A stretch of 64,000 bases of DNA from Lactobacillus amylovorus DSM 20531 (GTDB lineage Bacteria > Bacillota > Bacilli > Lactobacillales > Lactobacillaceae): assembly GCF_002706375.1 (NCBI RefSeq), contig NZ_CP017706.1:1798001-1862000 (forward strand), read 5' to 3'. A model generated the notes under the pieces. It saw nothing but the letters and a program-made list of their open reading frames with translations, ran no database searches and was not told the DNA's origin. A program made the position numbers and the translations under genes. Below, one piece after another: positions 14,424 to 38,293 of the stretch. Position 1 is the first letter of the stretch. Each line of letters opens with the position of its first letter.

Positions 14424-14881
14424 AAAAAATTCTCTTTGTTTGTCATGGCAATATCTGTCGTTCACCTATGGCAGAAGCAATTATGCAATATCTAATCAAG
14501 CAAAATGGGTTAGAAGATCAGTATGTTGCTGAATCAAAGGCGACGACACAAGATGCATTGGGTAGAGGAATTGATCCACGTGCTCAACGAGAACTTGAAA
14601 AGAATAGAATGCCTTATGACCGTGGCCATCGTGCCAGTCAAATGACAGCAAAAGATTACGATGAATATGAATATTTAATTTGTATGGATGAAGAAAACTT
14701 CGCTGATATGAATCGAATTACCGGTGGGGATGCGCAAAGAAAAGAGCATAAGCTATTGGAATTCGCTGGTTCATATGACGATGTTGATGATCCTTGGTAC
14801 ACCAATGATTTTGATACGGCATATCAAGAGATTTATAAAGGATGCGAAGGATTAATCAAAAAGCTAAAAGAGGATAAATAA
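14420..14881 (+). CDS. Low-molecular-weight protein tyrosine phosphatase
   Basis: A 153-aa cytoplasmic phosphatase with the P-loop CHGNICRS at residues 8-15 (nucleophile Cys8, Arg14) and the general-acid loop DDPWY near residue 117, both intact. Such enzymes often dephosphorylate bacterial tyrosine kinases that control polysaccharide export, but no kinase is nearby, so the target is unknown. Its natural terminator has been split by the IS3-family copy that begins 7 bp downstream. Confidence 0.9.
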   Translation: MKKILFVCHGNICRSPMAEAIMQYLIKQNGLEDQYVAESKATTQDALGRGIDPRAQRELEKNRMPYDRGHRASQMTAKDYDEYEYLICMDEENFADMNRITGGDAQRKEHKLLEFAGSYDDVDDPWYTNDFDTAYQEIYKGCEGLIKKLKEDK

Positions 14882-14914
14882 AAGGATTGAACTGAGACCT
14901 AAAAATTAGACAGT

Positions 14915-16297
14915 TTAAAATACAGGATTAATAGAGGCTTGATTCCGATATTCTTTCGGAGTTAAGCCTTTTAATCTGCTCTTTATCCTTTCTTCGTTAT
15001 AGTATTCGATATATTCTTCGATTGCTTGAGCTAATTCTTGAAGACTATGGTACTTGTATTCTTGATCATAGAACATCTCTGTTTTGAGCAAGCCAAAGAA
15101 GTTTTCCATTAGCCCATCATCCATGGAATTACCTTTTCTAGACATGCTTTGAGTAATACCATGAAGCTTTAAAGCACGCTGATATCTTGGACTTTGGTAT
15201 TGACAGCCCTGATCAGTATGAAAGATGCAATTATTAAGAGCCGTTTCCTTGGCAAAAGCCCTATCAAGCATTGTCATTACTAACTCCATGTCTGGATGTT
15301 TGGAAATAGTGTAAGAGACTATATCGCCTCCACAACCATCCAAAATAGGTGATAGATAAAGCTTTTCACCATTGAGGTGAAATTCAGTAATGTCAGTGTA
15401 CCATTTCATGTTGGGCATTGGTGCAAAGAAATCACGACGAATTAAATTAGGGGCTATCTTGCCAATAGTTCCCTTGTAGCTTGAATACTTACGCTTGTTG
15501 CGTCTGATACCCTTAAGACCCAATTTATGCATCCAGTAACGGACTGTTTTCTCAGTAATATTCCAGCCTTCTTTTATTAACTGGAGTGCCACTCGACGAT
15601 AGCCATAGCGTCCTTTGTGACGATTAAATATTTCCTTGATCCTTGCAATAAGTTTGGAACGCTTGGGCTTCTTAGGCTTTCGTTTAATTATTTTATAGTA
15701 AGAACTTCTGGCAATCGTAGGCAGCTCTGGATGCTCTGAAATTGCATCTAAGACATAGTTCAAGCTAACCTTAAATTCATGCCTTAGATCAGTAATTGCC
15801 TTAGCTATTTCTTTCGATCTTTGTCTTGATCCAAGGCCTTCAGTTTTTTTACGTATTCGTTCACAATACGCAATCGCAAGTTTTCTTCTTTCAGCTTTTG
15901 GATCTCTTTCTCCAATTCCTTGCGTGATTTTTGAGTCTCTTTGATCACGGGCAGGGCGTCCTTTCTGTTTGATAATGACATTATACCCGTTTTCCTTATA
16001 TTCTCTAAGCCAAATACTAAGTGTGCCAATACTCTTAAGCCCCAGTTCTAGTGATACTTGTACATATGACTTGGTACTGAAAACAGCTTGCTCAATTGCT
16101 TGTTCTTTAAATTCCTTAGAATAAACCTGATAAGGCCTATCTAAAACATTGATTCCATACATATCAATTAATCTAAGCATGTAATCCAAATTAGCTACAT
16201 TCGTTTTATATGTTTTAGACAACTGACTTATTGAAATCTTTTCATCTTTCCATTTACGATAAATTTCTATTTTCTGTTCTTTATTAAATTTAGACAT
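14915..16297 (-). CDS. IS3-family transposase, fused single frame
   Basis: 460 aa. The N-terminus has two helix-turn-helix segments typical of OrfA (SISQLSKTYKTN and YVQVSLELGLKSIGTLSIW). The C-terminal part is an OrfB-type rve integrase domain with the DDE triad: WYTDITEF, FHTDQGCQYQ and MENFFGLLKTE. Unusually, OrfA and OrfB lie in one frame. Residues about 113-160 look like out-of-frame translation, whereas the +1 frame there encodes the expected leucine zipper (RKELEKEIQKLKEENLRLR). The product therefore lacks the zipper. No good ribosome site precedes the ATG. Confidence 0.9.
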   Translation of the reverse strand: MSKFNKEQKIEIYRKWKDEKISISQLSKTYKTNVANLDYMLRLIDMYGINVLDRPYQVYSKEFKEQAIEQAVFSTKSYVQVSLELGLKSIGTLSIWLREYKENGYNVIIKQKGRPARDQRDSKITQGIGERDPKAERRKLAIAYCERIRKKTEGLGSRQRSKEIAKAITDLRHEFKVSLNYVLDAISEHPELPTIARSSYYKIIKRKPKKPKRSKLIARIKEIFNRHKGRYGYRRVALQLIKEGWNITEKTVRYWMHKLGLKGIRRNKRKYSSYKGTIGKIAPNLIRRDFFAPMPNMKWYTDITEFHLNGEKLYLSPILDGCGGDIVSYTISKHPDMELVMTMLDRAFAKETALNNCIFHTDQGCQYQSPRYQRALKLHGITQSMSRKGNSMDDGLMENFFGLLKTEMFYDQEYKYHSLQELAQAIEEYIEYYNEERIKSRLKGLTPKEYRNQASINPVF

Positions 16298-16302
16298 AGT
16301 AA

Positions 16303-16331
16303 AGACCTAAAAGTGTCTCACTTTTAGGTCT
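16303..16331 (-). promoter_or_regulatory. Hairpin at the IS3 left end, before the transposase start
   Basis: A perfect 13-bp stem (AGACCTAAAAGTG with CACTTTTAGGTCT, loop AGA) lies 5 bp before the transposase ATG in both IS copies. The only Shine-Dalgarno-like TAGGT is in the 3' arm. Impinging transcripts would fold it and could block translation, as known for IS10/IS50; the role here is inferred. Confidence 0.6.
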
Positions 16332-16341
16332 CACTTCAGAT

Positions 16342-16360
16342 GAGCTTTGCTCATCCTTTT
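16342..16360. terminator. Right part of the terminator split by IS3 copy 1
   Basis: GAGC-TTT-GCTC plus ATCCTTTT and a T run overlapping the glycerate kinase stop. The matching left part AAAAGGAT is at 14880-14887 beyond the IS. On the minus strand the remaining short hairpin no longer has a T tract, so glycerate kinase transcripts may now read into the IS. Confidence 0.8.
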
Positions 16361-17492
16361 ATTTTTTTGCGATCAAACGAACGACATTTTCGGTAGTACG
16401 TTCAACATTTTGCGGCCCATCTTTTAAAGCTTGATCAATATTTTCGGCCTTGGCCAAAATACCAAAGATAGCGGTGAATCCTTTGTCATAGAGATGATCA
16501 ATTCCTTTACCAATATAACCGGCAAGTGAGATAACTGGGACGTCATATTTTTTAGCAATTTGAGCCACACCGTATGGTGTTTTACCGAATTGAGTTTGGA
16601 AATCAGTTCCGCCTTCACCTGTAAAAACATAGTCGGCTTCTTTTATTTTTTCAGCTAGGTGTACTTCATTGGCAACTAGCTTAACGCCAGGATAGATTTT
16701 GGCATGAGTAAAGGCCAACAGACCGGCACCTAAACCGCCAGCTGCACCGCTACCAGGAGTTTGTGCTATATTTTGACCAATAATTTTCGCGTAGTGACTT
16801 AAATTTTCATCCAACTCTTTAGCTGTTGCTTGGTCCGCACCTTTTTGGGGACCGAAGACATAAGAGGCACCATTCGTTCCTGTCAGAGGATTGGTTACAT
16901 CGCTAGCGAGCAAAAACTTAGTCTTTTTGATTTTGGGGTTAATATCTATCGTGTCAATTCTGGTAATTTGTTTTAAATCGCCGCCACCTAATTTTTGAGT
17001 AATTTCGTGATCATTATGGTCAAAGAATTTAACACCAATTGCTTGGGCCATGCCACTACCGCCATCATTAGTACTACTGCCGCCAAGGCCAATGATGACT
17101 CGCGTAACATCGTGCTTTAAAGCAGCATTGATTAATTCACCGGTACCAAAAGTAGTAGTTTTTTTAATAGTTGCAGGAGTTCTCTTATCCTGTGGCACAT
17201 AGGAAAGGCCACTGGCTTCTGCCATTTCAATGATTGCAGTCTTTTGATCACCCAAAATGCCATAATGAGCTGTTACTGGTGTACCTAATGGTTCGGTAAC
17301 TTTAACCGCATATTTTTGACCGTTAGTGGCATCAATTAGAGAATCCATTGTGCCTTCACCGCCGTCAGCCATGGGAACCGAAATAATTTTTGCGTCTGGC
17401 AATACTTTTCTAATGCCATTTTCCATTGCCTGACAAACTTCTTTAGCTGTCATGCTTTCCTTGAATGAATCGGATGCTAGTACGAATTTCAT
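16359..17492 (-). CDS. Glycerate kinase (GlxK/GarK family)
   Basis: Phosphorylates D-glycerate, giving 2- or 3-phosphoglycerate. The 377-aa protein begins MKFVLASDSFKESMTA and has the family segments PMADGGEGTMDSL, GLGGSSTNDGGSGMA and SGAAGGLGAGLLAF, which form the nucleotide and substrate sites. Length is normal. Start ATG 17492 is preceded by GAGGG. It is divergent from the beta-glucoside antiterminator; the 200 bp between them contain a perfect catabolite-response element. Confidence 0.92.
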   Translation of the reverse strand: MKFVLASDSFKESMTAKEVCQAMENGIRKVLPDAKIISVPMADGGEGTMDSLIDATNGQKYAVKVTEPLGTPVTAHYGILGDQKTAIIEMAEASGLSYVPQDKRTPATIKKTTTFGTGELINAALKHDVTRVIIGLGGSSTNDGGSGMAQAIGVKFFDHNDHEITQKLGGGDLKQITRIDTIDINPKIKKTKFLLASDVTNPLTGTNGASYVFGPQKGADQATAKELDENLSHYAKIIGQNIAQTPGSGAAGGLGAGLLAFTHAKIYPGVKLVANEVHLAEKIKEADYVFTGEGGTDFQTQFGKTPYGVAQIAKKYDVPVISLAGYIGKGIDHLYDKGFTAIFGILAKAENIDQALKDGPQNVERTTENVVRLIAKK

Positions 17493-17553
17493 TATTGTCC
17501 CTCACTTCTTTTTATTTAATTTTACGTCATTTTGCTTTTTTAACAAAATATTG

Positions 17554-17582
17554 TTGATACCGCTTACAAAATTGGCTATTAT
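17554..17582 (+). promoter_or_regulatory. Promoter with overlapping cre site for the beta-glucoside operon
   Basis: A -35 TTGATA (17554-17559) and -10 TATTAT (17577-17582) are 17 bp apart. TGATACCGCTTACA at 17555-17568 matches the cre consensus TGWNANCGNTNWCA at every position and covers the -35, so CcpA repression in glucose is expected. Confidence 0.7.
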
Positions 17583-17599
17583 AATAACTGTAAGTGAGC

Positions 17600-17682
17600 G
17601 GATTACTGATTCGATCAGGTCTAAGCTACTACAGTAAGATAGTATACGTTTAGTGTATAATCTTATTTGTAGTAGCTTTTTT
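17600..17682 (+). promoter_or_regulatory. RAT antiterminator site and leader terminator ahead of licT
   Basis: 17600-17626 resembles the ribonucleic antiterminator target of BglG/LicT proteins (GGATTACTGATTCGATCAGG...). Its end overlaps the 5' arm (AAGCTACTAC, 17623-17632) of a terminator whose 3' arm GTAGTAGCTT is at 17669-17678, followed by T6. This is the autoregulatory leader of the antiterminator gene. Confidence 0.8.
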
Positions 17683-17711
17683 ATAGCTCAGATGATTAAG
17701 GGTGATTTGTG

Positions 17712-18549
17712 ATGAATTTTCTAAAAGCATTTAATAATAGTGCTGCTTTAGTAGAGGATGATGGCACAGAAAAGATAGTTCTAGGTAAAGGAATTGGTTT
17801 TGGTCTTAAAAAAGGCCAAGATGTTGATCAATCGAAAATTGAACGCTGTTTTGTGACAATTGAGCAGTCAGATGAAGTAGAACAAGTTAAGGAGTTTACA
17901 GCCCAAACAATTGATGTAACTAATCAAATTGTGAAGCTAGTTGAACCTCTTCTACAAACTAAATTTTCTGATTATCAATACTTAGCCTTAGCCGATCATA
18001 TTGATTTTGCTGTAACCAGAATTAATGATCATATTGATATCGACCCAGCAAATAATGACTGGGAGGTTAAGAATTTGTTCCCCAAGGAATATGCAATTTC
18101 AAAAAAGTAATCGCGTTAATCAACAGAGAGCTCAACGTTAAATCGCCAAAAGTGAAACGACATTTATGACATATCACTTAGTTAACGCAGCCTCTGACGA
18201 CGCGCAAGTCCAGGAAACAATGCGGATCACTAATTTGATCAGCGGCATTATTAGTATTATTCAGTTTCAATATAAACTTACTCTAGATACGAATTCTTTT
18301 AACTATAGCCGTTTTATCACACACTTACGGATACTATTAGTTAGGTTGCTTAGAAATCAACCGAATCCAAATCAAAAGCTAGATCCTTCATTATTATCGT
18401 TTATGAAGATCAAATATAATAAAGCCTACGATACGGCAGAACGAATTGCGACTTACTTACATTCGAAGATGGGCTGGACATTAGATTCAGACGATAAATT
18501 TTATTTGGTGTTGCACATCTTTAGAGTGACATCAAGACAAGAAAAATAA
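17712..18549 (+). pseudogene. BglG/LicT-family transcriptional antiterminator, frameshifted
   Basis: The first piece (17712-18110) encodes the RNA-binding CAT domain, with N-terminal MNFLKAFNNSAAL and GKGIGFGLKKGQ, and most of PRD1. The second (18166-18549) encodes the end of PRD1 (MTYHLVNA) and PRD2. Between them the reading moves through two frames: after the A-run near 18101-18107 the sense continues as VIALINRELNVK, and near 18151-18156 it shifts again into SETTFMTYHLVNA. Two frameshifts within about 60 bp inactivate a gene of normal overall length (~280 codons). Sequencing error at both sites is possible but less likely, given the lesions in the next gene. Confidence 0.85.
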
Positions 18550-18563
18550 TATCTATTAACTTA

Positions 18564-18657
18564 GGTATGTTACTAAGAGAATTAGGCATGAACCCAAGTT
18601 ACTGAAAGACGTTGAACACTATTGGTGTTCTCTAGTTTTTAAGTAGCTTGGGTTTTT
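18564..18657 (+). promoter_or_regulatory. Second RAT and terminator, ahead of the PTS gene
   Basis: A RAT-like stretch at 18564-18594 (GGTATGTTACTAAG...AGGCATGAACC) overlaps the 5' arm AACCCAAG (18591-18598) of a terminator whose 3' arm CTTGGGTT ends in T5 near 18657. An inner hairpin GAACAC/GTGTTC sits in the loop. The architecture matches the licT-controlled bglP leader. Confidence 0.75.
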
Positions 18658-18664
18658 ATTTTGA

Positions 18665-20466
<1,802 letters not shown>

Positions 20467-20480
20467 CAACTTTTTGCAAA

Positions 20481-20494
20481 AGTAATCGCTTTCA
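20481..20494. promoter_or_regulatory. Probable cre site upstream of bglA
   Basis: Read on the minus strand, TGAAAGCGATTACT matches the cre consensus at 13 of 14 positions. It lies 55 bp before the bglA start, suggesting CcpA control of an internal promoter. Confidence 0.5.
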
Positions 20495-20518
20495 GATAAG
20501 ATAAGTGTTGAGTAATAA

Positions 20519-22024
<1,506 letters not shown>

Positions 22025-22026
22025 TA

Positions 22027-23399
22027 GAAACTGTCAAATAGTTTGTGTAAATAGATCTTTCTCGTAAATTGATTTTTTAATTTTTTCTTAGTCAAAGTAG
22101 GATTCCAATGTATCCTGCACTTGGCCGAAGCCTTTATGGATTCGGTTGAAGTAGCGATCATTGTAGCTTATTGCCTGAATGCCAATGAAAGTATCAAGTG
22201 ACTGCTCGCTTGGAAACTCTGCTTTGGGCTTTGCCTTGCGTTTAACGACATTGTTAAAGGATTCAATCATGTTGGTGGAATAGATTGAGGGTCTGATCTG
22301 TTTGGGATAGTTGTAAAAGACCAATAGATCAGGCTCAATGTCTTTTAGATTCCTAATGACATGATTGTATGCCTTGTTCCATTTGTCATAGAATGCATGA
22401 AGAGTTTGTACAGCGGCTGTCTTGTTAGGCTGCCTATGAATCTGCTTGAAATCGTTCATGATTGTCTCACGATCGTCAACACGCACTTTATTGCAAATAT
22501 TGCGCATGACATGAACCAGGCAGCGCTGAAAATGTGCTTTGGGATAAGTCTTTGCCAGAGCTGTTTTCATGCCGACAACACCGTCAGACAAGAAAAGCTC
22601 GACTTGCTTCAAACCCCGCGATCTCATGTTTTGAAGCATTTCAGTCCAAACTTCGACGTTTTCGCTGGGTGCTATGCAGTAGTCGATTACTTCTTTATGG
22701 CCATTGGGCATGATGCCGATGGCAATATAGACGGCTTCACGCTCAAACGTTTCTCGGCACAGCGGAAGATACGTTGCGTCAAGATAAACGCAAAAGAACC
22801 TGTCGCTAAGCTTGCGTTTGTGATAGGCTTCAACCTTTGGAATCATTTGCTTGGAAATATTTGATACCTGAGCCGGACTGTAATGGCTGCCGTACATCTT
22901 TTCAATCAGATCGGCTATTTCTCTGGTAGTGACGCCTTTGGCATAAAGCTTGATAATCATGCTTTCCAGGACGTCCGAGTGCTGCTTGTAGTCAGGCAGA
23001 GTGTGCTGATGAAATTCGCCGTTTCTGTCTCTGGGAACCTGAATTTCGATCTGGCCAAACTGCGTATCAACCTTGCGATAATAGATGCCGTTTCTGGAAT
23101 TGCCAGAGTTCCATCCGCTTTTTGCATAAGGATCATAGCCTAAAAAGGCAGTCAATTCAGCTTCAAGCAATTGATTAACTGCAGATTGAATTTCCTTGCG
23201 CAAAAAATCATTAACTTTGTCTTGATTATTGGAGTGCTTGAGCCATATTTTTGGTAAAATCATTCATGAAGGAGTTCTTCTTTCTGTATGTTGTTTTTTT
23301 GTTCAATCCAATCATACGAGAAAGGAACTCCTTTTTCTAATATTTTCAGAAATTAATTTAAGGAATCATTCATCCTTACACAAACTATTTTACAGTCCC
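22027..23399 (-). mobile_element. IS256-family insertion sequence (IS1201-like)
   Basis: 1373 bp with imperfect inverted ends sharing ACTGT-AAATAGTTTGTGTAA, flanked by an 8-bp target duplication GACTAATA (22019-22026 and 23400-23407). The left duplication includes the bglA stop codon, so bglA keeps its natural end. Length, 8-bp duplication and transposase place it in the IS256 family; IS1201 of L. helveticus is a known relative of similar size. Confidence 0.92.
22088..23263 (-). CDS. IS256-family (mutator-type) transposase
   Basis: 391 aa, full length. The catalytic acidic residues are visible in FFCVYLDATYLPL, ELFLSDGVVGMKTAL (Asp) and IYSTNMIESFNN (Glu of the DDE set). The ACLVHxxRN-like region reads RCLVHVMRNI. 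It starts at ATG 23263 with AAGGAG-like sequence in the inverted-repeat-proximal leader. No disruption seen, so the element may be active. Confidence 0.93.
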   Translation of the reverse strand: MILPKIWLKHSNNQDKVNDFLRKEIQSAVNQLLEAELTAFLGYDPYAKSGWNSGNSRNGIYYRKVDTQFGQIEIQVPRDRNGEFHQHTLPDYKQHSDVLESMIIKLYAKGVTTREIADLIEKMYGSHYSPAQVSNISKQMIPKVEAYHKRKLSDRFFCVYLDATYLPLCRETFEREAVYIAIGIMPNGHKEVIDYCIAPSENVEVWTEMLQNMRSRGLKQVELFLSDGVVGMKTALAKTYPKAHFQRCLVHVMRNICNKVRVDDRETIMNDFKQIHRQPNKTAAVQTLHAFYDKWNKAYNHVIRNLKDIEPDLLVFYNYPKQIRPSIYSTNMIESFNNVVKRKAKPKAEFPSEQSLDTFIGIQAISYNDRYFNRIHKGFGQVQDTLESYFD

Positions 23400-23420
23400 G
23401 ACTAATAAGATAACTAAAAT

Positions 23421-23450
23421 AAAAAGAGATGACTTGATCATCTCTTTTTT
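23421..23450 (+). terminator. Original bglA terminator, now downstream of the IS256 copy
   Basis: Arms AAAAAGAGATGA and TCATCTCTTTTTT around CTTGA. Before the IS insertion it lay about 20 bp after the bglA stop. Confidence 0.88.
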
Positions 23451-23544
23451 GTATAGGCAATAATTGTGAAAGAATGTCAATATACCATATGAAATTCAAA
23501 AGTGTATAATTAATTCTATATTATTTTATATAGGAGTTGACATT

Positions 23545-24492: not shown

Positions 24493-24497
24493 AAAAT

Positions 24498-24534
24498 AAA
24501 AAATCATTAGATCAAGATGATCTAATGATTTTTT
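24498..24534. terminator. Bidirectional terminator between the hydrolase and the permease
   Basis: Perfect inverted repeat with arms AAAATCATTAGATCA and TGATCTAATGATTTT, with A and T runs on both sides, between convergent genes. Confidence 0.9.
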
Positions 24535-24548
24535 ATCTATTCTATTTA

Positions 24549-26727: not shown

Positions 26728-26737
26728 AATTTACAGC

Positions 26738-27379: not shown

Positions 27380-27383
27380 ATAT

Positions 27384-27411: not shown

Positions 27412-27463
27412 GAGTTAAGATAATAACGTTAATTAATATTAGAAAAAAGAAAGAAGGATCCTT

Positions 27464-28192: not shown

Positions 28193-28203
28193 TTAAAATA
28201 AAA

Positions 28204-28223
28204 GATAGCTTAGTCCTAGTGAC
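28204..28223 (+). terminator. Left half of the yebC terminator, split by the IS4 element
   Basis: GATAGCTTAGTC plus the duplicated GTCCTAGTGAC. The right half GACTGAGCTAT and T7 is at 29891-29907. Joined with one target copy, arms ATAGCTTAGTC and GACTGAGCTAT pair over 11 bp (one G-T) around a CTAGT loop. Confidence 0.8.
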
Positions 28224-28269
28224 CAATGTCATTAAGTTAAGACATTGACTAATCTGATGACACTTTTTG

Positions 28270-28311
28270 AGACATTTATCGAATTATTTTATTTGATAAA
28301 TGTCTTTTTTT
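28270..28311 (+). terminator. Terminator inside the IS4 right end (plus strand)
   Basis: Arms AGACATTTATC and GATAAATGTCT followed by T7 on the plus strand. It would stop yebC transcripts that have lost their own terminator and prevent antisense transcription of the transposase. Confidence 0.85.
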
Positions 28312-28354
28312 GATAGCACAAATAAGCCATCTTAAGATAGCCGTTTAAATTAGT

Positions 28355-29725
28355 TCAAGCTGCTAGACGATAAGGAAAGCCAACTACTAATTTAACTTTT
28401 AGATTTCGTTTATCTTTTCTTCCTGGTCGAATGGGCGTTAAATAAAATGCCACATCTAGCAGTAATTGTGTGAAGTTTTTATCTGAATTATCACTTATAC
28501 TAAAATATCGTCGCCAGATACAACAGGCCATTTTAAAATCTATTTGATATTGATATTTTCCCTGAGTATACGGTTTTGAGCTCGCAATTATTGATAAACT
28601 CACGGCATTATACATTGCAAAATGGGCGTATATTTCCATATAAACAAATTGATCTTTTTTAGAATGAAACTGTATGCCGCTTAAGTCATATTTAAGCTCC
28701 CTAAAAGAAGTTTCTATTCCCCAGCGAAGATGATAGATCTCTTTCATTCTAGCTAAAGGATATTCATTTCGATCTAAATTGGTGATGAGGACTTCCCACT
28801 CATCGTCTGAACCTGGTGGATTGATTCTAAACTTACAAACTCTAAATCTAACATCACACATATCCTCAAAATCCCAGCGTTGATCTCTGGTATTTTTAGA
28901 ACGAACAGCTTTATAGTGATGCTTTTTGTGAAGAATCAGGTGAAGAAACTTTTCTGTATCTTTATGGGTGACATAATAATAATGTGACGAAGTTACTCTG
29001 CATGATAAGTCAATATCGTATTCATGATTCGACATAGCTACAATTTCTTTAAAAGCACCATCTCCGGATTTTGATCGCATAACATAGTGGCAATGTTTTA
29101 ATCGATTGCAATTTTCAATTAAATTAAAGCTAATGTAGCCACGATCCATCAGGACTAGAAAATCTTTTTCTTGCTGGGCTAATTTCTTTATCATGGTTAA
29201 AGCTGCCTCACGTTCATCCATTTTTTGTCTAGGTTGGATAACCATGTCTAAATATAATTTATTCAAAACATCATAAAAAGCGTTTACATGTATCTGGCAA
29301 TATTTTCTACCATCTTTGCCTTGAAAAATATTCTTTGATTTTGGATTAAAAGGCTGATCAAAATCGGAACCATCAATCGCTACAACTAAGTATTTGTCAT
29401 CTAGTAATTGCGGTGCATTGTTTGCCTGACTAAGCTCAGCCATAATTTCTTTAAAGCATTCAGGCTTTAATTTAGCCTTTTGTTGTTCAAAAGCCGAAGC
29501 AGTCATTCTAGAATTTATGTCAGGAAAAGCATGAAAAATTTCCGAATTCAGGCTGCCAGCTCCCATGTTAAGAATTAACTTAATCAAATCAGTGGAATTG
29601 AGCTTACGACAGCGAATAAAAGCTTGATCAGATACAGAGAAATCGTGAATGTTGTCAGCGATTTTATTGATAATACTATCCATCAGCTTTAAAATATTTG
29701 AGTGAAGGGATTTCATAAGAGGCAC
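28355..29725 (-). CDS. IS4-family transposase
   Basis: 456 aa, intact. DDE region: VVAIDGSDFDQP (first Asp), FLVLMDRGYISF (second Asp) and the Y-(2)-R-(3)-E-(6)-K signature in YHLRWGIETSFRELKYDLSG, which defines IS4-type enzymes. Start ATG 29725. Nothing suggests inactivation. Confidence 0.93.
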   Translation of the reverse strand: MPLMKSLHSNILKLMDSIINKIADNIHDFSVSDQAFIRCRKLNSTDLIKLILNMGAGSLNSEIFHAFPDINSRMTASAFEQQKAKLKPECFKEIMAELSQANNAPQLLDDKYLVVAIDGSDFDQPFNPKSKNIFQGKDGRKYCQIHVNAFYDVLNKLYLDMVIQPRQKMDEREAALTMIKKLAQQEKDFLVLMDRGYISFNLIENCNRLKHCHYVMRSKSGDGAFKEIVAMSNHEYDIDLSCRVTSSHYYYVTHKDTEKFLHLILHKKHHYKAVRSKNTRDQRWDFEDMCDVRFRVCKFRINPPGSDDEWEVLITNLDRNEYPLARMKEIYHLRWGIETSFRELKYDLSGIQFHSKKDQFVYMEIYAHFAMYNAVSLSIIASSKPYTQGKYQYQIDFKMACCIWRRYFSISDNSDKNFTQLLLDVAFYLTPIRPGRKDKRNLKVKLVVGFPYRLAA

Positions 29726-29800
29726 AGCTTTCTATGAAAGACCAGATAATATGACGAAAGTGAGCAGAAGGGCAAATAAACTCTGCTTACTTTTTATTTT

Positions 29801-29838
29801 AAAAAGAAAAAAGACCGAATCAAAATGATTCGATCTTT
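29801..29838 (-). terminator. Terminator inside the IS4 left end (minus strand)
   Basis: Arms AAAGATCGAATCA and TGATTCGGTCTTT (one mismatch) followed on the minus strand by a T-rich tract, upstream of the transposase. It shields the transposase gene from outside transcription. Confidence 0.75.
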
Positions 29839-29932
29839 AAAAGCTGTCGATATAATGTCAATGTCTTAACTTAATGACATTGGTCCTAGTGACTGAGCTA
29901 TTTTTTTGTGCTCAAATTTAATAATTGCTTAA

Positions 29933-29981
29933 TTTACAAACGGCTTTAAATTAACATTTTTAGCTGTTTGTAAATTTTTTT
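29933..29981 (+). terminator. Terminator upstream of the comG operon
   Basis: Arms TTTACAAACGGCT and AGCTGTTTGTAAA (one mismatch) with T7. It lies between the split yebC terminator and comGA; it may insulate the competence operon or end a short transcript. No gene is visible before it. Confidence 0.75.
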
Positions 29982-30048
29982 ATTTTTCTCAGAAAAAAAT
30001 CGCCTTTTTTTGCGTAATAAATAGTGTGGGGTGAAAAAGGAGGTTTTT

Positions 30049-31023: not shown

Positions 31024-31993
31024 GCTGAATGGCGAGGAACAGTTGGCTTTTTTAGATTATTTAAAGCACAGTTTGGATAATGGTTTTTCACTGATTAACT
31101 CAATTGAATTAATGCCGGCTCTGTGGCCTAAGAGAAAAGAACTAATGGGAAAATTAGCAATGCGGATGAAAGAGGGGGCTAATTTTAGTAGCGAATTAGT
31201 GAAACTGGGCTTTTCTAAGACAACGGTGACCCAGGTTAATTTGGCCTTGCAGCAGGGAAATCTAACGGAATGCCTGAACCAGCTGGCAACTTTAAATCGC
31301 TTAAAACAAGAACAAGTTAAGAAATTGCGATCGGAACTGTCATATCCGTTTGTTTTAGCAATTATGATGGTGGTTTTGCTGGTGTTCATGCAATCGTTTA
31401 TTTCTACGCAGTTTAGCGATACTAGTGAACATTCTGGGGATCTAGTAATGCTGGTATTGATAGGTCTAGTTTTAGTAGGAATTTATTTTTTAGTCAAGAT
31501 CGTAACTTTGCTGAATAAGCAGGATTATGACTCGATGAAGAAGCTGGTGAAGTATCCGATTATTGGACCAGTTATTAAGCTATATGTGAATTATTTGTTG
31601 GTCTATGATATCGGGATGCTTTTGGCTAGTGGATTTTCATTGCAGCGAATGTGTGAATATGCTTCAGAACAAGAAGAGGGATCATTGCAGCAGGCTTTGG
31701 GTCAGAAGATTGGCAGTCAACTAGCTGAAGGGAAGAACTTGGAAGAGATCATTAAGCAGGAAGAATTCTTGCCTAATAGTTTGTTGATCATGTTGCAGAC
31801 GGGATCGGAAAGAAAGAGCTTGAGTCAGAGATGCTTGGTTTTGGGACGCAGTCTGTTTATTGATTTAACAGGAAAAATAGAGAAGCTGGTCGTGAATGTA
31901 CAACCAATTTGTTTTATTTTGATTGGCGTCTGCATTATTGGGATGTATTTGAAATTGTTGTTACCGATGTATTCGATGATGCAGGGGATTTAG
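30992..31993 (+). CDS. comGB: Competence pseudopilus membrane protein ComGB
   Basis: GspF/PilC-type inner-membrane platform, 333 aa, with duplicated T2SSF domains. Three hydrophobic helices lie near residues ~108-130, ~152-175 and the C-terminus. Start at ATG 30992 (or GTG 30989) behind GGGAGGAG; it overlaps the end of comGA by 32 bases. The C-terminal IGMYLKLLLPMY is typical. Confidence 0.9.
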   Translation: MRYIGNSNKDKLNGEEQLAFLDYLKHSLDNGFSLINSIELMPALWPKRKELMGKLAMRMKEGANFSSELVKLGFSKTTVTQVNLALQQGNLTECLNQLATLNRLKQEQVKKLRSELSYPFVLAIMMVVLLVFMQSFISTQFSDTSEHSGDLVMLVLIGLVLVGIYFLVKIVTLLNKQDYDSMKKLVKYPIIGPVIKLYVNYLLVYDIGMLLASGFSLQRMCEYASEQEEGSLQQALGQKIGSQLAEGKNLEEIIKQEEFLPNSLLIMLQTGSERKSLSQRCLVLGRSLFIDLTGKIEKLVVNVQPICFILIGVCIIGMYLKLLLPMYSMMQGI

Positions 31994-32003
31994 GAGTATA
32001 GAA

Positions 32004-32348
32004 ATGAAGAAAAGATTTAAACAATATTTGTTGAATATTTTAGCAAAGAGCCGCCGACAAGAAGGCTTTACTTTGATTGAAATGGTTGTGGTGATTGCCA
32101 TTATCGTAATTTTGATTTTGCTCATTGTGCCAAATTTGATTGGACAAAAGCAGAAGGCGGAAGACAAGTCTATGGATGCGTTTAGAAATACGATTTTGAC
32201 GCAAGTAGAGTTGTATAAGGATGATCATCCAGAAAAGACAAATATAAGTTTAGAAGACTTAGAAGGTGATCACTATTTAACTTCAGATCAGGTAAAAAAA
32301 GCAAAGAAAAATAATATAACCGTAGAAAATGTTAATAAACCGCAATAA
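32004..32348 (+). CDS. comGC: Major pseudopilin ComGC
   Basis: 114 aa. The class-3 prepilin peptide is long and basic and ends QEG, cut before FTLIEMVVVIAIIVILILLIVPNL (the conserved Phe+1 and Glu+5 are both present). It forms the shaft of the DNA-uptake pseudopilus after cleavage by the prepilin peptidase. It overlaps comGD by 20 bases. Confidence 0.92.
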   Translation: MKKRFKQYLLNILAKSRRQEGFTLIEMVVVIAIIVILILLIVPNLIGQKQKAEDKSMDAFRNTILTQVELYKDDHPEKTNISLEDLEGDHYLTSDQVKKAKKNNITVENVNKPQ

Positions 32349-32748
32349 TTTACCCGCTTTTTCCTTAATCGAAACAATAATCACCTTAGGTATCTGCTGT
32401 GGCATATTACTAATCGGAACTTTGCAACTGAAAAAGTACCAAGAACGTCTGATTTTCGATAATACCGTTAAAGAAGTGACTACTGCAATCGATCAAGCTT
32501 CAAGAGTTAGCACAATCACGGGAGAGGGCGTAGTAATTATTTTTTCACAAAGTGAACATTACTTGAGGCTCAGTGGGAGAACAAGTAACAAAAAAATTGA
32601 TATCGATGAAAACATGGAAATATCAGGACTTAGAAATTTTCATTTTGATAAACACGGCTATTCATCACCTGGTACTGTGACCTTCACGGGGTATGGGATG
32701 GAAAAGAAAATAAAGTACCAAATGCTATGGGGACGGGTGCCAAAATGA
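32329..32748 (+). CDS. comGD: Minor pseudopilin ComGD
   Basis: 139 aa with a prepilin-like N-terminus, NLPA then FSLIETIITLGICCGILLIG. Glu+5 is present, but the residue before the cleavage site is Ala instead of Gly. The rest is a short globular domain. Start ATG 32329 within the comGC end; the stop overlaps comGE (ATGA). Confidence 0.82.
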   Translation: MLINRNNLPAFSLIETIITLGICCGILLIGTLQLKKYQERLIFDNTVKEVTTAIDQASRVSTITGEGVVIIFSQSEHYLRLSGRTSNKKIDIDENMEISGLRNFHFDKHGYSSPGTVTFTGYGMEKKIKYQMLWGRVPK

Positions 32749-33014
32749 GGAAAGTAAAAGGATTCTTAATGGCGGAAAGTATTGTTGCACTGATTATTGC
32801 TACTGTTGCCGTAAGCTGTATGTATTTGACGGTTGCCGAAAGCCAAGAGAACGGAAGAGAGATTGAGCTAAAAACAGATCGCGCTTATGCCTACCATGTT
32901 TTACAAGAAAGCAATCTAAATCAAGTTACGGTTCACGATCGAATTTATGAAAAGGCAGGGCATAACTATGTTTATGATCGGGATGCAAAACAAGAATTCG
33001 CAGTTGAAGACTAA
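32745..33014 (+). CDS. comGE: Minor pseudopilin ComGE
   Basis: 89 aa. Its N-terminus, MRKVKG then FLMAESIVALIIATVAVSCM, fits a prepilin helix with Glu+5. Placed by position between ComGD-like and ComGF-like genes; sequence conservation in this family is low. Start ATG 32745 in an ATGA overlap, with GGGACGGG upstream. Confidence 0.75.
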   Translation: MRKVKGFLMAESIVALIIATVAVSCMYLTVAESQENGREIELKTDRAYAYHVLQESNLNQVTVHDRIYEKAGHNYVYDRDAKQEFAVED

Positions 33015-33528
33015 AGGCTTTGTGCTTGCTGAAGCAATCTTTTCCTTATTTGTGACCATGCTAGTCTTATTTATTTTGCAGAATTTATTATTAAGCGTTA
33101 AAAAGGCTAACCTGAGTGAAAATCAACATATGAATGAAGTTGCTTATGCGTATGTGCAATTAGATCGCTACATGCACGATGAAGATACTAAGATGGTTTA
33201 TCCGTTAGTAAATGAAGGAAAAGCTAAAAGTGCAACATTCGTCAAAGTAAATAAAGATAAAAGTGAAGTAGAATACAAGATTGAATATTATTTGTCAAAA
33301 CGCGTTTTAAAAGTTTCCAAATCTAACGGTGGTGGTTACATGCCGTTAATTTTTAATGTCCAGAGTGCAAAATTTATTATTAGAAAAGATAAGATTATCA
33401 TTCGCATTAATGAGTACAAGAAGGGAGAATCTGATTTAGTCTTTCAACTTGATGAAGAACCAGATGAGGATAGGAATGTTAGAAAGAATAAAAAAGAAGA
33501 CCAAGGTAAAAGGAAGCGCACTATTTAG
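32968..33528 (+). CDS. comGF: Competence protein ComGF
   Basis: About 186 aa with a hydrophobic segment KGFVLAEAIFSLFVTMLVLFI and a ComGF-like globular part (YVQLDRYMHDED, NVQSAKFIIRKDKIIIRI). It overlaps comGE by 47 bases. The start is uncertain: ATG 32968 and ATG 32983 are both possible and neither has a strong ribosome site. Confidence 0.75.
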   Translation: MFMIGMQNKNSQLKTKGFVLAEAIFSLFVTMLVLFILQNLLLSVKKANLSENQHMNEVAYAYVQLDRYMHDEDTKMVYPLVNEGKAKSATFVKVNKDKSEVEYKIEYYLSKRVLKVSKSNGGGYMPLIFNVQSAKFIIRKDKIIIRINEYKKGESDLVFQLDEEPDEDRNVRKNKKEDQGKRKRTI

Positions 33529-33637
33529 CAGCATCTTAGTATTAATCACGACATTATTGTTTATTAAAATGTATCAGGATATCTATCAAACCAGCATGGA
33601 AAACAATATCTTACTTATTAAATATCTATCTAATTAA
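33476..33637 (+). CDS. Small membrane protein at the ComGG position
   Basis: 53 aa: basic start MLERIKKKTKVKG, one hydrophobic helix (SALFSSILVLITTLLFIKMY) and a short polar end. It overlaps comGF by 53 bases and has AGGATAGGA before ATG 33476. The position fits ComGG, which is poorly conserved; the assignment is by context only. Confidence 0.6.
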   Translation: MLERIKKKTKVKGSALFSSILVLITTLLFIKMYQDIYQTSMENNILLIKYLSN

Positions 33638-33701
33638 ATGACTTTTCTTGCACCTCAACTTGCCTTTCTTTAAAATATTAAAGGTAATGGAGGGCTACTA
33701 G

Positions 33702-34703
33702 ATGGAAAATTTTGAAAAACTTTTTAATCAATTTTTAGATTGCGTACAAACTTTGCAAAATGCATTGAATGTTTCATTTACAGAAGCATTGGTTGAAACA
33801 TTTGACAACTTAGAACAAGGTAAGATAAAAGTTGAAAACGGTGCACCCGATGAAAAGACCATCGAAGAATTAAGCAAGAAGTATCAAGCAATTGATTATG
33901 ATCACATCAGTCAAAAAGATAAGGCACAAGTATTTACTTTTTTGACCTTAAAGGCAGTTAATGACGATGGCTTAGATGCTAACCAAATGCCAACACCACC
34001 AGCTATTTCTACTGTTGTAGCAATGCTGATGCATAAGTTGCTTAAAGATGAAAAGATGGAAATCATAGATCCAGCAGTTGGTACAGGGAACTTGCTCTTC
34101 TCAATAATTTCTCAATTGAAGGCTTTAAATCACTCCAAAGACAACTATCAATTAGTTGGAATTGATAACGACGAAGAAATGTTGAACTTAACGGACGTTG
34201 CTGCTCACTTAAATGACATTGATATTGAGCTATACTGTCAAGATGCTTTAATGCCTTGGATGTGTCCTAATGCTGATGCGATTGTCAGCGATTTGCCAAT
34301 TGGTTATTACCCAATTGATGAGAACGCTAAGAACTTTGAAAATCATGCTAAAAAGGGTCACTCATTTGCTCATTTATTATTGATTGAACAAATTATCAAG
34401 AATCTTAAGTCAGATGGTTATGCTTTCTTAGTTGTTCCTAAGTCAATTTTGTCCGGTAAGATTGGTGCGGACTTTATGCCATGGCTCACCAAAAAGGTAT
34501 ATTTGAAGGCGATCGTAGAATTGCCTGATGATATGTTCAGAAATAAATTTAATCAAAAGTCTATTCTTGTCTTCCAAAATCATGGTTCAGAAGCTAAATC
34601 TAGTGAAGTTTTGTTGACCAAGTTGGATTCATTGAAGAAAGAACAATCTTTGATTCAATTTAATGTGAAATTGAACGAGTGGTATACTAAAATCAATCAT
34701 TAA
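33702..34703 (+). CDS. Class I SAM-dependent methyltransferase (YtxK-like)
   Basis: 333 aa, an N6-adenine-MTase-type fold: SAM-binding motif DPAVGTGNLLF near residue 126, acidic loop VGIDNDEEM, and SDLPIGYYP at the place of the catalytic (D/N)PPF/Y motif. The motif deviates (SDLPIG), as in the YtxK family next to comG operons in bacilli, so DNA methylation is doubtful and the substrate unknown. It has its own ATGGAGGG site and lies 64 bp after the comG series. Confidence 0.85.
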   Translation: MENFEKLFNQFLDCVQTLQNALNVSFTEALVETFDNLEQGKIKVENGAPDEKTIEELSKKYQAIDYDHISQKDKAQVFTFLTLKAVNDDGLDANQMPTPPAISTVVAMLMHKLLKDEKMEIIDPAVGTGNLLFSIISQLKALNHSKDNYQLVGIDNDEEMLNLTDVAAHLNDIDIELYCQDALMPWMCPNADAIVSDLPIGYYPIDENAKNFENHAKKGHSFAHLLLIEQIIKNLKSDGYAFLVVPKSILSGKIGADFMPWLTKKVYLKAIVELPDDMFRNKFNQKSILVFQNHGSEAKSSEVLLTKLDSLKKEQSLIQFNVKLNEWYTKINH

Positions 34704-34748
34704 TTCGTAAAGCACGTAACTTTATTGAAAGTAGAGGAATTTATTTTT

Positions 34749-35933
34749 ATGGAAAAAGTTTTGGCAATCAACTCTGGTAGTTCATCTTTCAAGTACAAGC
34801 TATTTTCTTTGCCAGATGAAAAAGTAATTGCAAAAGGAATGGCCGATCGTGTAGGCCTTGATGATGCTTCATTTGAAATTAAATTGGCTGATGGAACAAA
34901 GCATGTTGAAAAAACAGAAATTCCAGATCAAGAAGCTGCAGTTAGTTTATTGCTTAAATTCTTGAAGCAATTTAATGTTGTTGAAGATTTAAATGAAATT
35001 GTTGGTGTTGGTCACCGTGTAGTTAATGGTGGTGAATTCTTTAAAGATTCAACTATCATTACTAAGGAAAACCTTCACGAAATTTATGAATTGGAAGATT
35101 ATGCTCCACTTCATAACCCAGCAGAAGGTCGCGGCATTGAAGCATTTATGAACGTATTGCCAAACGTTCCTCAAGTTGCTGTCTTTGATACAACTTATCA
35201 CCGTGCTCTTGATCCAGTACATTACTTATATTCTCTTCCATACGAATATTATGAAAAATACGGCGTACGTAAGTATGGTGCACATGGTACTTCAGTTCGC
35301 TATGTTGCCCCACGTGCCGCAGATATGATGGGCAAAGATCTTAAAGATTTAAAATTGATTGTATGTCACTTGGGTTCAGGTGCTTCAATCACTGCTGTTA
35401 AGGATGCAAAATCATATGATACTTCAATGGGCTTTAGTCCACTTGCTGGTATTACTATGGCTACGCGTTCAGGTGATATTGATCCATCTCTTATTCAACA
35501 CTTAATGCATGTTGAACATAAATCAATGGATGAAATGATCTATATGTTGAACCATAAATCTGGTTTGTTAGGTCTTTCTGGTATTTCACCAGACATGCGT
35601 GACGTTAGAGAAAGCGATAGCGACCGTGCAAAGTTAGCTAGAAACATCTTTATTAACCGTATTGTTCGCTATGTTGGTTCATACATTGCTGAGATGGGTG
35701 GTGTAGATGGAATTATCTTTACCGCCGGTATTGGTGAACACGACATGGGCGTACGCGAGGCTGTAATGGATGCATTTAAGTACATGGGTGTAGATCCAGA
35801 TTACGAAGCTAACAATAAAATCAGTGAAGGCTTTATTACTAAGCCCGATTCTAAGGTTAAAGTAATGGTTATTCCAACCAATGAAGAATTAATGATTGAA
35901 CGTGACGTTGTTCGTTTAACTCACATTAATTAA
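34749..35933 (+). CDS. ackA: Acetate kinase
   Basis: Converts acetyl phosphate and ADP to acetate and ATP, completing the branch begun by Pta. The 394-aa protein has the acetokinase signatures VLAINSGSSSFKYKLF at the N-terminus and VFDTTYHRAL near residue 157, plus HLGSGAS and the C-terminal GIGEHDMGVRE. The start is ATG 34749 behind GAGGAA; the frame is open 24 bases upstream without support. The gene follows the comG/methyltransferase cluster as in other lactobacilli. Confidence 0.95.
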   Translation: MEKVLAINSGSSSFKYKLFSLPDEKVIAKGMADRVGLDDASFEIKLADGTKHVEKTEIPDQEAAVSLLLKFLKQFNVVEDLNEIVGVGHRVVNGGEFFKDSTIITKENLHEIYELEDYAPLHNPAEGRGIEAFMNVLPNVPQVAVFDTTYHRALDPVHYLYSLPYEYYEKYGVRKYGAHGTSVRYVAPRAADMMGKDLKDLKLIVCHLGSGASITAVKDAKSYDTSMGFSPLAGITMATRSGDIDPSLIQHLMHVEHKSMDEMIYMLNHKSGLLGLSGISPDMRDVRESDSDRAKLARNIFINRIVRYVGSYIAEMGGVDGIIFTAGIGEHDMGVREAVMDAFKYMGVDPDYEANNKISEGFITKPDSKVKVMVIPTNEELMIERDVVRLTHIN

Positions 35934-35942
35934 GCCTTTTTG

Positions 35943-35972
35943 TTCGCACATTGTGTAGGTCTATGCTACAAT
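35943..35972 (+). promoter_or_regulatory. Candidate ssrA promoter
   Basis: TACAAT at 35967-35972 is a good -10 14 bp before the tmRNA 5' end; TTCGCA at 35943-35948 with an 18-bp spacer is a weak -35. Confidence 0.45.
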
Positions 35973-35985
35973 ATTAGAGTCTCAA

Positions 35986-36349
35986 GGGGATGTTTTGGGA
36001 ATCGACAGGCGTAGACTCGCATTGACTGCGGTTCGTAGGTTACGTCTACGTAAAAACGTTACAGTTAAATATAACTGCAAATAACAAAAATTCTTACGCA
36101 TTAGCTGCTTAATTTAGCGCATGCGTTGCTCTTTGTCGGTTTACTCGTGGCTGACACTGAGTATCAACTTAGCGAGTTACGTTTAACTACCTCACCTGAA
36201 TAGTTGAAAAGAGTCTTAGCAGGTTAGCTAGTCCATACTAGCCCTGTTATATGGCGTTTTGGACTAGTAAAGTTCAAGTAATATAACTATGATCGTAGAG
36301 GTCAGTGACGAGCTGCGTTTGGACAGGGGTTCAATTCCCCTCATCTCCA
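35986..36349 (+). ncRNA. ssrA: Transfer-messenger RNA
   Basis: Rescues stalled ribosomes and tags the incomplete protein. The 5' end GGGGATG pairs with CATCTCC at the 3' end, the T-arm GGTTCAATTCC precedes it, and CCA is encoded (36347-36349). The tag frame begins at GCA 36077 and reads ANNKNSYALAA then TAA (36110-36112), ending in the typical LAA degron. The last bases served as an attachment site for an integrated element: the same 18 bp recur at 36653-36670. Confidence 0.95.
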
Positions 36350-36359
36350 TAGATAAGAA
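36342..36359 (+). repeat. Attachment repeat at the tmRNA 3' end (attL of a lost island)
   Basis: CATCTCCATAGATAAGAA, identical to 36653-36670. The pair encloses about 290 bp of island-like sequence. Confidence 0.75.
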
Positions 36360-36670
36360 AATGCTTTAATGTCAACATGCTAGAAACATTGATATTAAAG
36401 CATTTTTGTTTTGTTGAATTAGTTGAAATCAAATATGAAGCCTAAAAAAGACTTCATATTAAGCTTCATATTTTCGTGAAGTCTACAGAATTATTTTTGT
36501 TGTGTAGGTAGGCTAATCTTAGATATTTAGCTGTAATAGATTTATATCATTGTTTATGTTAACCAACATTGTAGGGCGTTGGTTTTATTTTTAGGTTATA
36601 CATACTTATAAATTATTAGTAAAAGGGACGCATAAATAAAATGAATACCAAACATCTCCATAGATAAGAA
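36350..36670 (+). mobile_element. Relic of an integrated island at ssrA
   Basis: No gene fits here. From left: a terminator (arms AATGCTTTAATGTCAA and TTGATATTAAAGCATT, 36361-36405, T5); a repeated TTCATATTAAGCTTCATATT stretch near 36456-36475; a 30-bp box (36502-36531) matching boxes in the tRNA-Gln island; a leader with a terminator hairpin CCAAC/GTTGG at 36563-36592; then the duplicated tmRNA end. The same order (post-RNA terminator, paired repeat, box, leader terminator) occurs at 51260-51540 in the tRNA-Gln island. I infer the left end of a related element whose body was deleted. Confidence 0.7.
36653..36670 (+). repeat. Attachment repeat, right copy (attR of the lost island)
   Basis: Second CATCTCCATAGATAAGAA. 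It is followed by AAGCTTTGTTAGGA, the left arm of what must be the original tmRNA terminator, now also cut by IS3 copy 2. Confidence 0.75.
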
Positions 36671-36674
36671 GAAA

Positions 36675-36691
36675 GCTTTGTTAGGAAAGTA
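36675..36691 (+). terminator. Left half of the original tmRNA terminator, split by IS3 copy 2
   Basis: Arm AAGCTTTGTTAGGA, then AA and the duplicated GTA. The partner arm TCCTAGCAAAGCTT with a T run starts at 38146. With the IS removed the arms pair over 14 bp (one G-T) around an AAGTA loop. Confidence 0.85.
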
Positions 36692-36698
36692 TGAAGTG

Positions 36699-36727
36699 AG
36701 ACCTAAAAGTGAGACACTTTTAGGTCT
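36699..36727 (+). promoter_or_regulatory. Hairpin before the transposase start, IS3 copy 2
   Basis: The same 13-bp perfect stem as in copy 1, ending 5 bp before ATG 36733. Confidence 0.6.
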
Positions 36728-36732
36728 TTACT

Positions 36733-38115
36733 ATGTCTAAATTTAATAAAGAACAGAAAATAGAAATTTATCGTAAATGGAAAGATGAAAAGATTTCAAT
36801 AAGTCAGTTGTCTAAAACATATAAAACGAATGTAGCTAATTTGGATTACATGCTTAGATTAATTGATATGTATGGAATCAATGTTTTAGATAGGCCTTAT
36901 CAGGTTTATTCTAAGGAATTTAAAGAACAAGCAATTGAGCAAGCTGTTTTCAGTACCAAGTCATATGTACAAGTATCACTAGAACTGGGGCTTAAGAGTA
37001 TTGGCACACTTAGTATTTGGCTTAGAGAATATAAGGAAAACGGGTATAATGTCATTATCAAACAGAAAGGACGCCCTGCCCGTGATCAAAGAGACTCAAA
37101 AATCACGCAAGGAATTGGAGAAAGAGATCCAAAAGCTGAAAGAAGAAAACTTGCGATTGCGTATTGTGAACGAATACGTAAAAAAACTGAAGGCCTTGGA
37201 TCAAGACAAAGATCGAAAGAAATAGCTAAGGCAATTACTGATCTAAGGCATGAATTTAAGGTTAGCTTGAACTATGTCTTAGATGCAATTTCAGAGCATC
37301 CAGAGCTGCCTACGATTGCCAGAAGTTCTTACTATAAAATAATTAAACGAAAGCCTAAGAAGCCCAAGCGTTCCAAACTTATTGCAAGGATCAAGGAAAT
37401 ATTTAATCGTCACAAAGGACGCTATGGCTATCGTCGAGTGGCACTCCAGTTAATAAAAGAAGGCTGGAATATTACTGAGAAAACAGTCCGTTACTGGATG
37501 CATAAATTGGGTCTTAAGGGTATCAGACGCAACAAGCGTAAGTATTCAAGCTACAAGGGAACTATTGGCAAGATAGCCCCTAATTTAATTCGTCGTGATT
37601 TCTTTGCACCAATGCCCAACATGAAATGGTACACTGACATTACTGAATTTCACCTCAATGGTGAAAAGCTTTATCTATCACCTATTTTGGATGGTTGTGG
37701 AGGCGATATAGTCTCTTACACTATTTCCAAACATCCAGACATGGAGTTAGTAATGACAATGCTTGATAGGGCTTTTGCCAAGGAAACGGCTCTTAATAAT
37801 TGCATCTTTCATACTGATCAGGGCTGTCAATACCAAAGTCCAAGATATCAGCGTGCTTTAAAGCTTCATGGTATTACTCAAAGCATGTCTAGAAAAGGTA
37901 ATTCCATGGATGATGGGCTAATGGAAAACTTCTTTGGCTTGCTCAAAACAGAGATGTTCTATGATCAAGAATACAAGTACCATAGTCTTCAAGAATTAGC
38001 TCAAGCAATCGAAGAATATATCGAATACTATAACGAAGAAAGGATAAAGAGCAGATTAAAAGGCTTAACTCCGAAAGAATATCGGAATCAAGCCTCTATT
38101 AATCCTGTATTTTAA
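36733..38115 (+). CDS. IS3-family transposase, fused single frame (copy 2)
   Basis: 460 aa, identical in sequence to the product at 14915-16297, including the anomalous segment at residues ~113-160. The DDE triad is intact. The alternative frame 37070-37225 again encodes the leucine zipper KELEKEIQKLKEENLRL and stops at 37225. Two identical copies with the same fused frame suggest the fusion was present before the latest transposition and may be functional. Confidence 0.9.
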   Translation: MSKFNKEQKIEIYRKWKDEKISISQLSKTYKTNVANLDYMLRLIDMYGINVLDRPYQVYSKEFKEQAIEQAVFSTKSYVQVSLELGLKSIGTLSIWLREYKENGYNVIIKQKGRPARDQRDSKITQGIGERDPKAERRKLAIAYCERIRKKTEGLGSRQRSKEIAKAITDLRHEFKVSLNYVLDAISEHPELPTIARSSYYKIIKRKPKKPKRSKLIARIKEIFNRHKGRYGYRRVALQLIKEGWNITEKTVRYWMHKLGLKGIRRNKRKYSSYKGTIGKIAPNLIRRDFFAPMPNMKWYTDITEFHLNGEKLYLSPILDGCGGDIVSYTISKHPDMELVMTMLDRAFAKETALNNCIFHTDQGCQYQSPRYQRALKLHGITQSMSRKGNSMDDGLMENFFGLLKTEMFYDQEYKYHSLQELAQAIEEYIEYYNEERIKSRLKGLTPKEYRNQASINPVF

Positions 38116-38293
38116 ACTGTCTAATTTTTAGGTCTCAGTTCAGTATCCTAGCAAAGCTTTTTTATTATTTTTTACTATAACTTTTAGTTATTTACTAATG
38201 CTAAAAATAAGTATTAAACATTATTGGCAAGGGCTTGTACAATTATCATAGTTAAAAATGAAATTAAGCATATTAAATACACGGAGAAAAATA

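Follow-up and report, generated by a model that had tools for sequence, protein, structure and literature searches.

Insertion sequences (ISs) and other mobile elements that settle in palindromic or terminator DNA have been described from several groups. IS4 of Escherichia coli is the type element of its family, and De Palmenaer et al. (2008, PMC2266710) give -AATR ends and a 10-13-bp duplication for subgroup IS4 (their Table 1) and report a 'spectacular' target-arm specificity for some of its members. In the account of Furi et al. (2016, PMC4923244), IS1272/TnSha1 of the IS1182 family enters terminator hairpins that have little sequence in common, while ISPsy8, ISRm22, IS1397 and ISKpn1, members of the IS3 and IS4 families, are described as splitting palindromes at their axis of symmetry (Tobes and Pareja 2006, PMC1525189), and class C group II introns as using intrinsic terminators as a niche (PMC3522654). 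Terminator targeting as such is therefore already known. Here we analyze a stretch of 64,000 nucleotides (the window; positions 1,798,001-1,862,000) from the genome of Lactobacillus amylovorus DSM 20531, a single contig of 2,172,769 bases, in which an IS4-group element and two copies of an IS3-group element each interrupt a terminator hairpin. The target preference is real and strong; it is more exact than an earlier sequence-only reading of this DNA had seen, and the family's type element has it too. What is new is insertion that is centred on the dyad and leaves a full duplication, in IS4 itself. Text searches of open-access papers turned up the precedents above but no prior report of terminator-loop targeting by IS4 or by the IS3 group studied here, and PMC9330008 likewise gave none.

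The sequence-only reading had placed three of the four ISs of the window within terminator hairpins, and both the positions and the arms it gave were correct (Table 1). The 11-bp duplication of the IS4-group element, GTCCTAGTGAC, covers the loop and the top of the stem; IS3 copy 1 lies in the left arm of its hairpin, with the 3-bp duplication GAT, and copy 2 in the loop, with GTA. The fourth, an IS256-group element, sits just upstream of a terminator hairpin that begins about 20 bp downstream of its duplication. Comparison with relatives at the loci of the IS4-group element and of IS3 copy 1 indicates that the rebuilt sites resemble terminators that occur naturally. For the yebC locus, where the IS4-group element resides, we compared the best 29 of the 39 relatives with a match, and 28 of these 29 had a T-tract hairpin no more than 50 nt from the yebC stop codon, that of L368 being near-identical. 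At the locus of IS3 copy 1, a hairpin of the GATGAG..CTCATC type is present in the five nearest relatives (L397-L401), and across all 17 relatives examined there was some hairpin in 10 and none in 7.

The IS4-group element belongs to the IS4 family, subgroup IS4, as its single 456-aa frame scores over the cut-offs of PF01609 and NF033592 and encodes a transposase of the expected type. The ends of the group are CAATG and its duplications here 9-11 bp, most of them 10 bp, in agreement with the subgroup, although the 9-bp duplications fall just under the printed range. With E. coli IS4 and its subgroup it shares the -AATR ends, the duplication of about 10-13 bp and the single-frame DDE transposase, whereas the word 'terminator' is absent from the text of the review and its passages on this subgroup do not speak of dyads (PMC2266710), and here the arms are terminator stems. 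The unrelated IS1272/TnSha1 is described as leaving a blunt, partial deletion of the hairpin and no duplication (PMC4923244); by contrast, the duplication here is full and dyad-centred, and at the 28 IS4-group and 36 IS3-group sites, which were selected for exact duplication, the hairpins stay whole. The repetitive extragenic palindromic (REP) targets of ISPsy8, ISRm22, IS1397 and ISKpn1 are given as one repeat family (PMC1525189), while in our case the stems differ and belong to gene terminators, and the class C introns are said to enter downstream of the stem by RNA-based retrohoming (PMC3522654), unlike the insertion into the loop seen here. Each end of the window's IS4 element (28224-28247 and 29859-29882) is itself an imperfect palindrome, CAATGTC...GACATTG, and the E. 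coli IS4 end has this property as well.

The 28 IS4-group sites, 17 from the L. amylovorus genome and 11 from relatives, comprise all fetched loci with recognizable ends and an exact duplication. The copies in the L. amylovorus genome fall into seven at 97-100% identity, four at 85%, one at 79% and more distant ones. Excluded were L027, L033, L055, L106, L115, L141, L204 and L206, for want of an exact duplication or of an end, and L207, in which one end base differs and the hairpin is centred. A hairpin score was computed at every centre (GC 3, AT 2, GT 1, mismatch -4, loop 3-10), and a site was counted as centred if a hairpin scoring at least 20 had its axis no more than 2.5 bp from the centre of the duplication; the thresholds were fixed after an initial inspection of the own-genome sites. 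When the empty sites were rebuilt and scored against the intergenic background, as the sequence-only reading had proposed, 24 of the 28 (16 of 17 in the L. amylovorus genome and 8 of 11 in relatives) were dyad-centred, whereas in the window the share was 2.18% for intergenic positions and 0.84% for coding ones (binomial probability 2.6e-36 at an expected 2.2%). Among the sites lying inside a hairpin at all, 24 of 25 were within 2.5 bp of the dyad, where a uniform distribution would give 15%. The stem sequences were unlike from one site to another, at least five T's in 8 nt were present at 23 of the 24 centred sites, and the element showed no bias in orientation relative to the terminator (11 same, 10 opposite, 4 tied). 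All seven sites with a duplication were likewise dyad-centred for elements from two further genera, whose transposases are 52% and 31% identical. The transposase tree of the group has long branches, so we make no claim as to whether the trait defines one clade. Three of the copies without a duplication (L027, L033 and L106) have a common flank (AAGCGTTGAGA..), found in two species, which may reflect a single ancient insertion or a site altered by recombination.

The type element behaves in the same way. A match to IS4 was found in 2,659 of 5,426 E. coli genomes, and 26 loci were fetched, of which 21 were submitted to scoring and 20 scored, L454 having no exact duplication; left out of the scoring were L447, L460 and L461 (in genes) and L456 and L465 (neighbouring genes). 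The 20 scored loci collapse to nine distinct places, and seven of these are centred by the same measure, at glgP, crr, raiA, fumC, adhE, glcA and next to metK, where the hairpin has few T's, against 1.2% of 14,000 flank positions; with the four unscored places taken as misses, the count is 7 of 13. One of the misses, L458, is terminator-like by eye but scores 18. The adhE terminator holds IS4 in opposite orientations in two strains, and therefore there were probably two separate insertion events. An insertion of IS4 in the pheST attenuator has reportedly been seen as well.

In the IS3 group, hairpins are targeted less strictly. Membership of the IS3 family follows from NF033516 over its cut-off and from TGAA/TTCA ends with a 3-bp duplication in all seven full copies of the L. 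amylovorus genome, four of which are in strong hairpins. With the relatives included, 70 loci were examined, giving 36 sites (27 gave none and 7 repeated sites already counted; L005 and L007, which have nearly identical flanks, were both scored as misses), and 25 of the 36 were inside a hairpin scoring at least 24, versus 7.7% of 1,500 random intergenic positions, so that the proposed comparison came out positive for this group too. Within these hairpins, 14 of the 25 insertions were no more than 2 bp from the dyad, for an expected 10.6%, and of the other 11, ten were 3.5-7 bp away in one arm and one 11 bp away. Searching the family more widely from the IS3 transposase added few new genera, and the counts are given without these loci. 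The transposase of the group is one open frame (460 aa in the window, about 460-480 aa in the group) whose middle reads like a leucine-zipper-like stretch translated out of frame; in the window's IS3 element (36733-38115, +; 14915-16297, -) this zipper, KELEKEIQKLKEENLRLRIVNEYVKKLKAL, lies in another frame. Both frames are open in seven of seven elements (the window's and loci L145, L146, L152, L155, L164 and L172), which suggests dual coding, with a frameshift whose product would be a short protein bearing the zipper.

To see what the IS4 group may respond to, its sites were sorted by two cues, a centred dyad and A4/T4 tracts 8-19 bp to either side. Both cues were present at 18 of the 28 sites, the dyad only at six, the tracts only at three and neither at one, compared to 34, 123, 165 and 6,866 positions, respectively, in the intergenic background; each cue is enriched singly, and the combination most. 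We favor, at a probability of roughly 0.7, the interpretation that the IS4-group transposase selects its targets by two-fold symmetry, which terminators fit, and that the IS3 group does so less strictly. A two-ended transposase complex, itself two-fold symmetric, would settle on a target dyad that has an A tract to its one side and a T tract to its other, both about equally far off (mostly 9-17 bp), and would make a staggered cut of 9-14 bp with the dyad at its centre. Since intrinsic terminators share this layout of dyad and tracts, the element would accumulate in their loops. The duplication is about one helix turn long and spans the loop along with paired stem bases, from which we infer that the transposase reads its target in the form of linear duplex DNA.

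It is unlikely that extruded cruciforms or single-stranded hairpins are instead the substrate. The use of strong stems of differing sequence would agree with it, and for IS1272 the target is described as DNA secondary structure (PMC4923244), but a 9-14-bp duplication over loop and paired stem would be better explained by a staggered cut in linear duplex, and sites with tracts only are used. Slightly less likely again is that the symmetric A/T tracts, as a bent or narrow-groove duplex, are all that the elements read, the hairpin being incidental because terminators have such tracts. Two of the three IS4-group sites having tracts without a centred dyad are in open frames, and the widespread K-12 place of E. 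coli IS4, with its AAA-N20-TTT layout (by eye) and no terminator, points the same way, as would a target consensus of this form for E. coli IS4; against this stand the background counts above, both for the dyad-only and combined classes and for the class with tracts alone. Guidance by terminating RNA polymerase or its RNA is improbable, for although T's accompany nearly all the centred sites, there is no orientation bias, the dyad, and not the T tract at which the polymerase lets go, is where the insertion is centred, and the few-T hairpin beside metK was a target; orientation- or transcription-directed targeting was discarded on the lack of bias.

IS256, from the same genome and relatives in the genus, served as a control. 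It yielded 11 usable sites from 56 loci, a small number because most of the loci have no duplication (42, many of them fragments; 3 more were repeats or near an end), and none of the 11 was centred on a hairpin and one was inside a strong hairpin (Fisher's exact test, 8e-7 for IS4 versus IS256 and 0.001 for IS3 versus IS256). ISL3 was considered as a second control and dropped, since its four copies are unlike and their borders not definable. That insertion is random and only the copies in harmless places such as terminators last is very improbable: terminators are intergenic, some interruption is tolerated there and 11 IS3-group sites are located elsewhere, but IS256 under the same filter in the same genomes shows no comparable pattern, and this, with the centring of the in-hairpin IS4 sites on the dyad, rules out survival alone as the cause. 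Hence, where the sequence-only reading had left open whether these elements recognize hairpins or merely survive in terminators, the former is supported and the latter fails as a sole cause; considering the symmetric A/T tracts of the IS4 sites and the looser IS3 group, however, 'recognize hairpins' is only part of the rule.

Several observations weigh against selection by two-fold symmetry. Four of the 28 IS4-group sites were not centred, L026 and L124 being in open frames, L050 lying 4 bp off-axis in a hairpin and L056 having a weak hairpin. In the IS3 group, 11 of 36 sites were outside a strong hairpin, including three of the seven own-genome copies, one of them in a weak hairpin and two, with near-identical flanks, adjoining a short one. 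The K-12 place described above belongs here too. A scan for the shared end sequence gave at least 118 stretches, and among the matches listed there were 22 places with a duplication, mostly outside lactobacilli and in other phyla, of which four were dyad-centred (L246, L264, L274 and L294), with a T tract at one of them, L274; among the same matches, three Allobaculum elements show neither a terminator nor a small GC palindrome. Terminator choice is thus demonstrated for E. coli IS4 and for the Lactobacillaceae elements, but not for all elements with these ends. Finally, the targeting by both groups is deduced here from resident genomic sites. The scan also brought up short elements from Flavobacterium and other hosts (L221, L239, L245, L277 and L326), about 120-220 bp long, whose ends are of IS4 type and whose duplications measure 8-9 bp; by eye, they are located within small GC palindromes, GCCCTGTAAGGGC being an example.

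Both kinds of element carry terminator-like hairpins of their own. Among 15 IS4-group elements, including two from Allobaculum of unsure orientation (broken frames), an inward-facing T-tract hairpin was found 36-62 bp in from the left end in 14 and 41-109 bp in from the right end in 10. E. coli IS4 has inward-facing hairpins at both ends, and in the IS3 group eight of eight elements have them, about 21-23 bp from one end and 64-66 bp from the other. Up to 150 bp from the ends of three IS256 elements, no such hairpin was present in two and a weak one in the third. The carried stems vary between elements on both arms, compensating by eye. In the window, transcription out of yebC reaches the element's hairpin about 95 nt past the stop codon (L366). 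With such hairpins at both ends, insertion may exchange one terminator for another: the predicted inward-facing terminators would replace the broken one, host transcription would still stop and the insertion would be nearly neutral. We infer that the carried hairpins would restore termination, although the right-end hairpin is absent in 5 of the 15 IS4-group elements. We would give even odds to the broader proposal that the IS4 lineage, with E. coli IS4 and the lactobacillar elements alike, comprises terminator-swapping elements, which would recognize intrinsic terminators by dyad and tracts, insert on the axis and bring in terminators of their own, a near-neutral niche at which the lactobacillar IS3 group arrived independently. 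These findings provide a testable target rule for one of the longest-known insertion sequences and suggest how such elements spread cheaply for the host, the same niche being used by two unrelated transposase families within one genome. As both bring their own stop signals, their landings may be nearly harmless to the host, and the terminator loop, a sequence-independent but position-exact address, could be of use in neutral integration.

Table 1. Insertion sequences of the window, the hairpins at their sites and the hairpins they carry (window coordinates)
Feature	Position	Strand	Details
IS3 copy 1 site, part of left arm AAAAGGAT	14880..14887	+	ends in duplication GAT 14885-14887
IS3-group copy 1, 1451 bp	14888..16338	-	transposase frame 14915-16297 (-); NF033516 over cut-off
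IS3 copy 1 site, remaining hairpin GAGCTTTGCTCATCCTTTT and T tract	16339..16367	+	duplication GAT 16339-16341
IS256-group element (fourth IS; control), 8-bp duplication GACTAATA	22027..23399	-	duplication 22019-22026, 23400-23407
Split terminator, left half (ATAGCTTAGTC..)	28205..28223	+	left copy of duplication GTCCTAGTGAC 28213-28223
IS4-group element, 1659 bp	28224..29882	-	transposase 28355-29725 (-); ends CAATGTCATTAAGTTAAG; PF01609, NF033592 over cut-off
Terminator-like hairpin in IS4 element	28267..28312	+	faces transcription entering from yebC side
Terminator-like hairpin in IS4 element	29811..29838	-	faces transcription entering from other side; A_L016, centre 58 bp from end
Split terminator, right half	29883..29907	+	duplication 29883-29893; right arm GACTGAGCTAT 29891-29901; T tract
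IS3 copy 2 site, left arm AAGCTTTGTTAGGA and loop	36673..36691	+	left duplication GTA 36689-36691
IS3-group copy 2, 1451 bp	36692..38142	+	transposase frame 36733-38115 (+)
Inward-facing hairpin GACCTAAAAGTG/CACTTTTAGGTC with T's, IS3 left end	36700..36728	+	IS3_L001, centre 21
Inward-facing hairpin, IS3 right end	38059..38095	-	within end of transposase frame; IS3_L001, 65 bp from right end
IS3 copy 2 site, right arm TCCTAGCAAAGCTT and T tract	38143..38164	+	right duplication GTA 38143-38145

Two further observations were made along the way. In genome G009 (contig 1, 1133029-1135780), a tandem pair of IS256 elements stands 14 bp apart. Elsewhere in the window, a tRNA-Glu/tRNA-Gln pair is followed by a phage-like region (51100-58670), named by eye from its translations, which encodes a tyrosine-recombinase-like integrase (57513-58670, +) together with a regulator of the helix-turn-helix type and a replication-like protein.

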